Below are positions 2,946 to 5,314 of a stretch of DNA of 43,148 bases, in pieces; the stretch's first letter is position 1, and each line of letters opens with the position of its first letter. This DNA comes from Candidatus Peregrinibacteria bacterium (lineage in GTDB: Bacteria; Patescibacteriota; Gracilibacteria; UBA1369; LOWO2-01-FULL-3), in the NCBI GenBank assembly GCA_030688025.1, contig JAUYJL010000031.1:1-43148 (forward strand), read 5' to 3'. The translations under genes were made by a program, and so were the position numbers. The notes beneath the pieces are model-generated. The model was given only the letters and a program-made list of their open reading frames with translations, was not told where the DNA came from and did no database searches.

Positions 2946-3248
2946 TTTTGCCGTATTGGTATAATCAAAGTTTGTTTTGTAATTCATCAGTGCAGACACT
3001 TTTGTTTCTTGTCTGTTTTTGGCTTGTGCCTGCCGAGAGTGTGAGGTGTGCTGAGACGGAGGTTTTGATTTCGTATAACGTCCGAGACTAGGCGATGTTT
3101 GCTGGCTGGTATAATATAACGCCGATAGGCGTTTTACCAACCGAAAATATGGGTACAGTGAACGAGCGTAGCGACTGAACGGAACCGCCCAAACACCTAA
3201 TCCGTTCTTTTTTCCGCACTAGCTCCACACTATGTAAATACAACACTG
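2946..3248. other. Gene-free stretch with structured, locally GC-richer sequence
   Basis: No convincing gene is seen; a 73-codon minus-strand ORF here has biased composition and no recognisable features. From about 3074 the sequence becomes GC-richer and structured. At 3104-3142 an imperfect hairpin has arms GG, TGGTA and AACGCC around a GATA loop (3124-3127), closed by GGCGTT, TACCA and CC. Further right, 3160-3190 holds ACGAGCGTAGCGACTGAACG and CCGCCC. The layout recalls folded recombination sites or dispersed palindromic repeats, but no integron R-box pair could be placed. It may be the remnant of a mobile element. Confidence 0.4.
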
Positions 3249-3276
3249 TTGACAGATGTCAAATGCTTGATATACT
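3249..3276 (+). promoter_or_regulatory. Strong sigma-70-type promoter of the attenuator/zinc-ribbon transcript
   Basis: TTGACA (3249-3254), 16-bp spacer, TATACT (3271-3276). Transcription should start near 3283. That gives an unusually long leader of about 190 nt before the ATG at 3471, and it is packed with secondary structure. The same TATACT -10 occurs at other promoters in this window. Confidence 0.75.
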
Positions 3277-3313
3277 GTCTGCAGTTAAGTGAAATTTAAC
3301 TTAAATATGACTA

Positions 3314-3450
3314 ATTCTGTCTTAAATCAGTCTCGGTTTGAAATGATGATGAGCCCCACGGACTTCGTGGTGAGCTCTTCTAATGCTTAAGACAGAATAG
3401 AAGATTAACACTCACATCCACGAAGTTCGCATGAACTTCGTGGATTTTTT
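3314..3450 (+). promoter_or_regulatory. Attenuator-like structured leader RNA (candidate riboswitch or cis-regulator)
   Basis: A closing stem ATTCTGTCTTAA (3314-3325) pairs perfectly over 12 bp with TTAAGACAGAAT (3387-3398). Inside it, CCACG (3356-3360) pairs with CGTGG (3366-3370), flanked by GAGC/GCTC. Downstream lies an intrinsic terminator at 3417-3450. Its 5' arm begins CCACGAAGT (3418-3426) and is exactly complementary to ACTTCGTGG (3362-3370), which is the 3' arm of the first hairpin. So segments 1:2, 2:3 and 3:4 can pair in mutually exclusive ways, the classic antiterminator/terminator arrangement. It sits between a strong promoter and a zinc-ribbon gene whose ATG starts 20 nt after the T-run. 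I recognise no known riboswitch class; a terminated small RNA is the alternative. Confidence 0.6.
3417..3450 (+). terminator. Rho-independent terminator inside the leader
   Basis: A perfect 12-bp stem TCCACGAAGTTC (3417-3428) / GAACTTCGTGGA (3433-3444) with loop GCAT is followed by six T (3445-3450). It lies before, not after, the coding sequence it precedes. Its natural reading is therefore premature termination of the leader transcript. Confidence 0.8.
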
Positions 3451-3470
3451 ATGCGTAAATTTTTATCACA

Positions 3471-3770
3471 ATGACAGACTTACTAACACAACAAGGTTGT
3501 CCAAGCAGGAATTGCAAAAGCTATGGAAATAGTAACGATGTTGTCTTGCATGACAAAAAGCTCAATCGTTTGCGCTGTAAGGTTTGTGGCAAAACATGGA
3601 GTGCTCATCATCTGGAGTTTCATTTTGGTTTGCGTACAGACACTGTGAAGGTTCGTAGGGCTGTAGATATGTTGAAGGCTGAAATACCGATTCGTAAAAT
3701 CGCACGGCTTGTGGATGTAAGTGCTGGGACTGTCATGCGATGGAAGAAGAAACTTAATAAATTTAACTAA
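3471..3770 (+). CDS. Zinc-ribbon plus helix-turn-helix protein, IS1 InsA-like
   Basis: A 99-residue protein. An N-terminal zinc ribbon is formed by C-P-S-R-N-C (residues about 9-14) and RCKVCGKTWS (about 35-44). A C-terminal helix-turn-helix follows at about 72-95 (IPIRKIARLVDVSAGTVMRWKKKL). This is the architecture of the InsA-type N-terminal part of IS1 and related transposases, but no catalytic domain follows and no inverted-repeat ends surround it. It may be a domesticated DNA-binding regulator. The gene lies 19 bp before a DUF62-like gene and behind the structured leader, so the two probably share one attenuated transcript. Autoregulation or control of the neighbour is an inference. Confidence 0.65.
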   Translation: MTDLLTQQGCPSRNCKSYGNSNDVVLHDKKLNRLRCKVCGKTWSAHHLEFHFGLRTDTVKVRRAVDMLKAEIPIRKIARLVDVSAGTVMRWKKKLNKFN

Positions 3771-3789: not shown

Positions 3790-4785
3790 ATGAATACTTT
3801 AACACATATCACTGATGTTGGTGCGCCTTATGGTGAAGGCACCGACTCAAATGAAAGAATACGCAAGCAGTATAATCGCTTAGGGGTAGAACCTCGTATT
3901 GTTAATGCGGGGCAGTCGCCTTTACATGTGGCTTTTACCGCTTGTACTGATATTATACAGCATGCGCGTGAAAATGCCTGTCAACTGTTGAGGAAATTGG
4001 GTATTGAATCAGAGTCTTTGCCGCCAACAGCGCTGAATAGTGCTCCTAGAAATGCTGTAAAACGTCTGCCAAATGGACAGGAAGATCATATTTTCAGGGT
4101 TAAACATCCCGATATAGACACTTTGTTGCTCTATGGCCCAGAGGTTTTATCATGGGTTTTAGAGTTTCGTGGCAGGACAGATGTTGTACTGGATAGAATT
4201 GTATCACTGGGAGATGGCGGAGATATTATCAATAACACCTCAAATGGTTCTCAATTTCGATCCTCAGAGCATTTGCCATTAGCACACTTCCTGGAGTCTT
4301 TAGGCAGACTGGATGAATTTTCTGAAAGAGAAGCTGTAGATCCAGACGGTATTGTTTCGATTGCTCATGATCATGACTCTGTTTTCCCACTTCCACCTGA
4401 CGAATATGGGAATGGGCGTTTGTTGGCAGAAAAAGGGTTGTTTGATGAAATATTGGATAAGGACTATGTTAGGATTCCTGGACTGCTTAATAAACGCCCG
4501 ATCGCCGTTCGACAATCGTTAACAGATGTTGAACAAACTAATAGAGGTGATAACCCAGAACTTGCAGTTTGGCCAAGTTCTAATCACTTCCCTGGCGGTA
4601 GGTTCGGCGTGTTAAATATTGGTGCTCGTTATGGAGATGGAGAGACCAAGTTAAGACATGATGGTGTTCTTCTTGATTTGATTCTTAAATTGAGAGAAAG
4701 ACTTGGGAATGGTTTTGCCGTGGAATTTGGCTATTTCGATAATGATGCTATACAGCGTGGCGCTGGTGTGGGGCGTTTTTGTTGA
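3790..4785 (+). CDS. SAM hydroxide adenosyltransferase (DUF62 / chlorinase family)-like protein
   Basis: A 331-residue soluble protein whose motif order fits the DUF62/fluorinase family. The start HITDVGAPYGEG resembles the (T/S)D-x-G substrate loop, and EPRIVNAGQSPLHVAFTA the IVDITHxVxP region. DTLLLYGPEVLSWVLEF matches the VGPxNGLLS segment, and GSQFRSSEHLPLAHFL the F-x-GRDxFAPxAAHL helix. In the C-terminal barrel, PDEYGNGRL matches the IDxFGN segment and LAVWPSS with FGVLNIGARYG the GSSGRLxIAxNxGNA segment. Family members cleave SAM to adenosine plus methionine, or halogenate it. Several usual active-site residues are not evident, so the activity is uncertain. It follows the zinc-ribbon/HTH gene by 19 bp. 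Alignment was by eye only. Confidence 0.5.
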   Translation: MNTLTHITDVGAPYGEGTDSNERIRKQYNRLGVEPRIVNAGQSPLHVAFTACTDIIQHARENACQLLRKLGIESESLPPTALNSAPRNAVKRLPNGQEDHIFRVKHPDIDTLLLYGPEVLSWVLEFRGRTDVVLDRIVSLGDGGDIINNTSNGSQFRSSEHLPLAHFLESLGRLDEFSEREAVDPDGIVSIAHDHDSVFPLPPDEYGNGRLLAEKGLFDEILDKDYVRIPGLLNKRPIAVRQSLTDVEQTNRGDNPELAVWPSSNHFPGGRFGVLNIGARYGDGETKLRHDGVLLDLILKLRERLGNGFAVEFGYFDNDAIQRGAGVGRFC

Positions 4786-4962: not shown

Positions 4963-4990
4963 TAAATATTATGGAAAAGTAAAGTTTTTT
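4963..4990. repeat. 28-bp direct repeat, copy 1
   Basis: A 28-bp sequence beginning TAAATATTATGG and ending in a run of T is repeated exactly at 5287-5314, 324 bp away. The two copies bracket a small truncated ORF. Apart from the hairpin at 4829, these repeats and that ORF, the 575-bp gap between 4785 and 5361 shows nothing else I can name. Confidence 0.85.
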
Positions 4991-5286: not shown

Positions 5287-5314
5287 TAAATATTATGGAA
5301 AAGTAAAGTTTTTT
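5287..5314. repeat. 28-bp direct repeat, copy 2
   Basis: Exact second copy of the sequence at 4963-4990. It ends 46 bp before the aldolase start codon, so it may overlap that gene's promoter region. Confidence 0.85.

Follow-up and report, generated by a model that had tools for sequence, protein, structure and literature searches.

A candidate methionine-codon attenuator in front of a zinc-ribbon/HTH gene in Patescibacteria, and its relatives with other amino-acid runs

Known attenuators and the present locus

The ribosome-mediated attenuators of Proteobacteria control the trp, his, thr, leu, ilv and phe operons, and the leader peptide of E. coli thrL, for example, is rich in Thr and Ile codons. 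Leader-peptide attenuation was formerly known from Proteobacteria and Actinobacteria only, until Firmicutes were added (PMC2965389); attenuators of this type have been described in Actinobacteria (PMC1262725), for hisS/hisZ in bacilli (PMC2965389) and for the branched-chain operon of S. aureus (PMC5794164), and the regions in front of the methionine operons of Actinobacteria showed no RNA structure (PMC1262725).

The leader studied here lies in a stretch of 43,148 nucleotides from a Candidatus Peregrinibacteria genome (hereafter, the window). It shares with the known ribosome-mediated attenuators a leader ORF carrying a run of control codons, an alternative antiterminator and terminator and, in several of its homologous loci, downstream genes that would fit the same pathway. 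It differs from them in being patescibacterial, in its Met run, in having a zinc-ribbon/HTH regulator (ZnR-HTH) as first target, and in that runs of several different amino acids occur within a single orthologous family. In the open papers that we searched, we found no report of leader-peptide attenuation in Patescibacteria or of Met control codons; the mechanism is a known one, and it is for the phylum, the amino acid (Met) and the target that no prior report was found. Two other types of leader invite comparison. Like SAM riboswitches (S-box and others), the present leader would control Met/SAM metabolism via premature termination, but it has no aptamer or Rfam match, and sensing would occur by translation of Met codons. 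As in T-box leaders, amino-acid status would select antiterminator versus terminator, but no T-box match was found in Rfam, and a translated ORF would take the place of direct base pairing with tRNA. Some relatives resemble E. coli thrL in design, though not demonstrably by descent (L018 ...TITTTIFIAG, L051 ...TTTTTTTLVAG); the gene downstream is that of ZnR-HTH, and ThrS is found in the same gene string in one genome (G581).

The leader and its pairing segments

The features of the locus are as follows (positions in the window, + strand).

3226-3248 (+): conserved upstream element CACACTATGTAAATACAACACTG, candidate operator, whose form CACnnTATnnnnnTACAnnnT stands directly 5' of TTGAC
3249-3276 (+): sigma-70-type promoter TTGACA-16-TATACT, with TG before the -10 and 11/12 matches
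3249-3262 (+): palindrome TTGACAGATGTCAA, with the promoter -35 inside it
3307-3390 (+): predicted leader-peptide ORF, 27 codons, MTNSVLNQSRFEMMMSPTDFVVSSSNA, stop TAA at 3388-3390
3314-3398 (+): 12-bp closing stem, 3314-3325/3387-3398, seen in the fold, unconserved
3343-3351 (+): putative control codons ATG ATG ATG (Met-Met-Met, ATGATGATG), invariant in 8 Met-group leaders
3356-3360 (+): segment 1, CCACG, 5' strand of the 1:2 hairpin
3359-3374 (+): segment 2, 5' strand of the antiterminator and, alternatively, 3' strand of the 1:2 hairpin (CCACG 3356-3360/CGTGG 3366-3370)
3411-3429 (+): segment 3, antiterminator 3' strand, CTCAC..CCACGAAGTTCG, of which 3416-3428 doubles as terminator 5' arm
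3416-3450 (+): intrinsic terminator with U tract, stem 3416-3428/3433-3445
3471-3770 (+): ZnR-HTH gene, zinc-ribbon + HTH_23 protein of 99 aa, first gene behind the attenuator
3790-4785 (+): second gene, 331 aa, rare, DUF62-like only in a weak motif resemblance

The original prediction had placed a promoter ahead of a long leader and an intrinsic terminator shortly before the downstream ATG, and both are confirmed. The terminator (3416-3445) has 13 perfect pairs and a 4-nt loop, is followed by a T run, ends 25 nt 5' of the ATG at 3471, and has the longest stem among the terminator-like sites detected in the 43-kb window. The leader sequence is single-copy in its 1.18-Mb genome and its fold is much stabler than those of shuffled sequences (z = -5.7, 0/200). 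An IS element bounded by perfect terminal inverted repeats of 21 bp lies upstream of the leader (2016-2945); the coding sequence of its DDE transposase is broken into two frames that overlap (2124-2489, 2443-2886), so that the gene is probably frameshifted or inactive.

The exact complementarity of ACTTCGTGG (3362-3370) to CCACGAAGT (3418-3426), which was at the heart of the original prediction, belongs to an antiterminator helix of 12 bp in full (3359-3370/3418-3429), which folding extends through GTGAG/CTCAC. The three alternative pairings that had been proposed (protected, antiterminator and terminator) are real, and antiterminator and terminator are mutually exclusive, as is expected of a ribosome-mediated attenuator. 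A repeated palindrome or uptake sequence was considered for the ACTTCGTGG arms and rejected, since within the window the motif is limited to position 3362 and the two arms of the terminator, and the genome has no other copy of the hairpin. In a comparison of 8 related leaders, pairing persists in 91% of cells for the antiterminator, 93% for the inner hairpin and 81% for the terminator. The 12-bp closing stem, also part of the original prediction, fares less well: it is present in the fold, but it is paired in only 55% of cells, which puts it outside the conserved core, and it is probably accessory.

The leader ORF was absent from that first description. Its Met-Met-Met run lies immediately 5' of the hairpin and of the segment that would choose between antiterminator and terminator. 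Start codons of the leaders were picked by inspection, and no Shine-Dalgarno sequence is evident 5' of the ATG at 3307. In the 8 Met-group leaders MMM follows the ATG at a constant distance of exactly 12 codons, with no indels, and in two of them (G424 and G425) an extra base 3' of MMM shifts the frame with the pairing retained; what seems to be important is therefore the reading frame as far as the run and, beyond it, the RNA pairing. The ORF, the run and its position, and the paired segments with their conservation can all be read directly from the sequences and their comparison.

Homologous loci and their codon runs

The second gene being too rare for the purpose, loci were gathered via the ZnR-HTH gene, whose profile search gave matches in 16/89 genomes of the order and 19/353 of the class (some of them partial or to unrelated HTH proteins), and 21 loci were read. 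In 20 of these 21 the ZnR-HTH gene is preceded by a predicted leader ORF, an antiterminator and a terminator that is either strong or at least recognisable, the ORF ends about 20-34 nt before the terminator, and a leader segment is complementary to the terminator 5' arm; in the lone exception (L067, in G452) no leader ORF, antiterminator or terminator was found. The homologous loci thus support the attenuator with mutually exclusive antiterminator and terminator that had been predicted in front of the zinc-ribbon/HTH gene. The runs of the 20 leaders are Met3 in 6 (plus 1 separate), Thr3-7 in 4, Val4 in 1 and Ile/Leu/Val-rich in 5, with no clear amino-acid run in 3 (L053, L055 and L059).

Met leaders: window ...FEMMMSPTD..., G394 ...FIMMMSPTD..., G689 ...FEMMMSPTD...
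Met leaders, continued: G388 ...SSMMMSQHE..., G406 ...PSMMMSPTN..., G424 ...SSMMMRLHK...
Separate Met leader with unrelated flanks: G451 ...THMMMHHMPEK...
Thr leaders: L051 ...VVKTTTTTTTLVAG, L063 ...VSTTTTTTRKVWR, L065 ...STKTTTTPAVG, L018 ...TITTTIFIAG
Val leader: L056 ...KSVVVVKYSS...
Ile/Leu/Val-rich leaders: L066 ...SILVIPKK..., L064 ...LVIIKLLPK..., L054 ...TLIINQRES
Ile/Leu/Val-rich leaders, continued: L057 MINKGLILGLILITA..., L060 ...ILALLNRSRD

Against the background proteins of the loci, Met3, Thr7, Thr6, Thr4, Thr3 and Val4 each have P <= 0.0015 for that run (0.0012 for the Met3 of the window, the others reaching values as low as 5e-5, the limit set by the sampling); for Ile/Leu/Val the enrichment is less marked (P 0.02 to 0.3). 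In one of the Ile/Leu/Val-rich loci, that of G155 (L017 / L066), the ZnR-HTH gene is interrupted by an in-frame TAA in its middle, although the leader and both its antiterminator and its terminator seem to be intact.

Apart from G451, the Met triplet is for the most part confined to one lineage. A covariance model built from the Met leaders and searched over 341 genomes of the class returned the six known leaders and two new ones with Met3 (in G425 and G450). The terminator of the G425 leader (MNQISFGQARSSMMMRLHILRGEHFLMRR) stands directly before a SAM-hydrolase-like gene, with no ZnR-HTH gene between, whereas in the congener G424 a ZnR-HTH gene lacking an evident ATG lies between leader and SAM-hydrolase-like gene. 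The G450 leader (L095, G450:C15:2762-2920) has no gene in the same direction behind it and may be the remnant of an operon that has been lost; the gene now opposite its terminator is convergent and, by reading only, TrpG/PabA-like.

In the tree of ZnR-HTH proteins the Met leaders form one group (support 70/90), the Thr and branched-chain types are not grouped, and on this poorly resolved tree at least 4 changes are required to account for the four leader types. Specificity was probably exchanged repeatedly among these leaders. The antiterminator segments themselves differ widely between loci (CGGACTTCGTGG/CCACGAAGTTCG, AGTGTGGAG/CTCCACACT, TAGCAGGGT/GCCCTGCTA, and also GTTTCGCGGTT/AACCGCGAAAT and TTCGCGGGATTA/TAATCCCGCGAA). 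The duplex between leader and terminator arm has a mean of -18.7 kcal/mol within a locus (20 loci), as compared to -11.1 kcal/mol (sd 3.3, n = 346 pairs) between loci of different groups, and the own leader is the strongest partner of the terminator arm in 14/20 loci. Judged from these sequences, compensatory change in the antiterminator, of the kind proposed as a check of the original prediction, exists between groups of loci; within the Met group it does not appear, because the pairing segments are too conserved to reveal covariation.

Ribosome position, mechanism and rival readings

We consider it very likely that the window leader is a ribosome-mediated (leader-peptide) transcription attenuator, and our confidence is high that it would sense charged tRNA-Met by translation, Met being the likely signal. 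We infer that the leader ORF is translated, that ribosomes stall in it and that readthrough follows from the stall. With plentiful Met-tRNA, the ribosome would pass Met13-15 and reach the stop codon, covering segment 2 (3359-3374), so that segment 3 (3411-3429) would be free for the terminator (3416-3445) and transcription would end near 3450. With scarce Met-tRNA, it would stall at the Met triplet, masking segment 1 (3356-3360) and leaving segment 2 free to pair with segment 3 once the latter is made; this would forestall the terminator and let transcription proceed into the ZnR-HTH gene and its downstream neighbour. The related loci would use the same scaffold for other amino acids.

This scheme was modelled by sliding-ribosome folding, in which the transcript extends to the terminator 5' arm and is masked as far as 12 nt beyond the first base of the A-site codon. 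In 20/20 leaders the predicted antiterminator forms with the A site upstream of the run and fades within it or a few codons after, and its probability is about 0 with the ribosome at the stop codon. This result is partly built in, given that segment 2 is close to the 3' end of every ORF; what is informative in the model is that the runs, and not other codons, border the switch point, sitting at or beside the last codons where a stalled ribosome leaves the antiterminator free. In the ribosome-free model most leaders antiterminate too (0.60 for the window), so that low basal expression would require efficient leader translation. At equilibrium with all segments present the terminator wins, and antitermination must therefore be kinetic.

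The strong leader fold and the SAM-related genes downstream in several loci might also suggest a riboswitch for SAM or a related ligand, with the closing stem and inner hairpin as an aptamer controlling the terminator. We give this reading next to no credence: a cmscan of the leader, at the gathering cut-off and with E up to 5, gave no Rfam match, including SAM riboswitches and T-box; the closing stem is unconserved; and the parts that are kept are a reading frame with a codon run and the attenuator segments, with no conserved aptamer-like core. Besides, orthologous leaders exchange Met for Thr, Val or Ile/Leu runs, which is unlike an aptamer. The original guess of a SAM-related ligand was near the mark on other grounds: Met codons would be read, and Met3 leaders in relatives precede SAM-hydrolase-like and homocysteine methyltransferase genes.

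The original prediction also considered binding of the leader RNA by the HTH protein. Zinc ribbons are able to bind RNA and the ZnR-HTH gene directly follows the leader in 20 loci, but it is very improbable that this protein sets termination on its own leader, given that in G425 the Met3 leader is followed directly by an enzyme gene and not by an HTH gene, that the Met3 leader of G450 is not followed by ZnR-HTH, that no motif resembling a protein site is conserved across groups, and that an HTH protein would more plausibly bind the DNA element 5' of the promoter. Nor do we find much to recommend the idea that the leader is a mobile terminator or attenuator of a transposon-like element, blocking read-through into a ZnR-HTH gene that would be a transposase remnant. 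Mobile attenuators are on record (PMC2965389), transposase HTH profiles match ZnR-HTH weakly, the distribution is patchy (19/353 class genomes) and an IS element lies just upstream (2016-2945); however, a catalytic domain is lacking, the genome contains only this one copy, and locus-specific runs with second genes related to the same amino acid would be left unexplained, which makes this origin highly doubtful.

Regulator, downstream genes and significance

PF13384 is matched in 17/17 ZnR-HTH homologs, and the zinc ribbon is assigned from conserved cysteines. In most loci TTGAC has the 23-bp element CACnnTATnnnnnTACAnnnT in front of it, and TTGACnnnnGTCAA covers the -35 in 10/21 loci versus 0.04% in shuffles. 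In 11 genomes all matches to CACnnTATnnnnnTACAnnnT with 0-1 mismatch are in front of a ZnR-HTH gene; as no copies, and hence no multicopy regulon, were found outside the ZnR-HTH loci of these genomes, we claim no global regulon. In G425, where ZnR-HTH is missing from its place, CACnnTATnnnnnTACAnnnT and TTGACnnnnGTCAA are partly decayed. These observations suggest that ZnR-HTH may regulate its own gene through the palindromic candidate operator.

The downstream genes fit the coded amino acid in part of the loci. A SAM hydrolase (DUF62 family) releases Met from SAM, and a SAM-hydrolase-like gene is present behind Met3 in G689, G424 and G425; the G425 protein matches SAM_HAT_C with E 4.5e-5 (24.1 bits versus a cut-off of 25.5), and the gene in the same place in G689 gives a match of this type at 0.016. 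Behind the Met3 leader of G406 there are a methyltransferase-like gene and a homocysteine S-methyltransferase (8e-65). IlvC follows an Ile/Leu-rich leader (G412), and the operon of the Thr6 leader (G581) consists of a gene of no known family, an Asp/Glu racemase and ThrS (2e-197). The leuABCD operon behind the Met3 leader of G394 (L068), on the other hand, is a clear misfit to Met: a methyltransferase-like gene is followed by leuA, a PLP aminotransferase, leuC, leuD and leuB. This gene string could serve either leucine synthesis or the elongation of a Met-derived keto acid. The second genes of G388 and of the window match no known family, and those of other loci have no known family or no obvious link (an ABC transporter or acetate kinase, for instance). 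In L053 and L054, from two genomes of the family, the ZnR-HTH cassette adjoins, in convergent orientation, SUF-like iron-sulfur cluster genes, among them (by reading only) a cysteine desulfurase and NifU-like proteins.

For the 331-aa product of the window's second gene, whose DUF62 label is tentative, there was no Pfam or NCBIfam match and no SAM_HAT_N or SAM_HAT_C domain, and no canonical SAM_HAT_N gene was found in 41 relatives. A search of 287 genomes of the phylum gave a single homolog, from Candidatus Magasanikbacteria (MFRA01000005.1), which shares 47% identity and is accompanied neither by ZnR-HTH nor by this leader; GTDB contigs gave the same one, and there was none in viral contigs, phages or plasmids. 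The AlphaFold model (mean pLDDT 39) is unusable. In the long gap between this gene and a DeoC/LacD-type aldolase gene, an exact 28-bp direct repeat, TAAATATTATGGAAAAGTAAAGTTTTTT, occurs at 4963-4990 and 5287-5314, 324 bp apart, and is possibly a duplicated promoter sequence.

Tentatively, and with somewhat more doubt than belief, we would see in these loci a patescibacterial cassette, in which a ZnR-HTH regulator family with its own conserved operator would be switched on by exchangeable attenuators sensing Met, Thr, Val, Ile or Leu. In the Met version, Met hunger would turn on SAM-cleaving and homocysteine-methylating enzymes, and a cell that makes few amino acids could recover Met from SAM, the products thereby restoring its Met supply.

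The mechanisms that govern differentiation of Patescibacteria have been called completely unknown, and inducible expression tools still need to be developed (PMC11665869); the leader could double as such a tool. The present leaders would carry a mechanism known from the textbooks into a phylum without an earlier report in our searches, and apparently to an amino acid of which the same is true, and an orthologous family with exchanged specificities offers a natural experiment on sensor evolution. Nutrient sensing is almost unknown in these ultrasmall, mostly host-dependent bacteria. Since the sensed amino acid is explicit in the sequence of an attenuator, the leaders may be taken as readable records of the amino-acid shortages that such cells meet.
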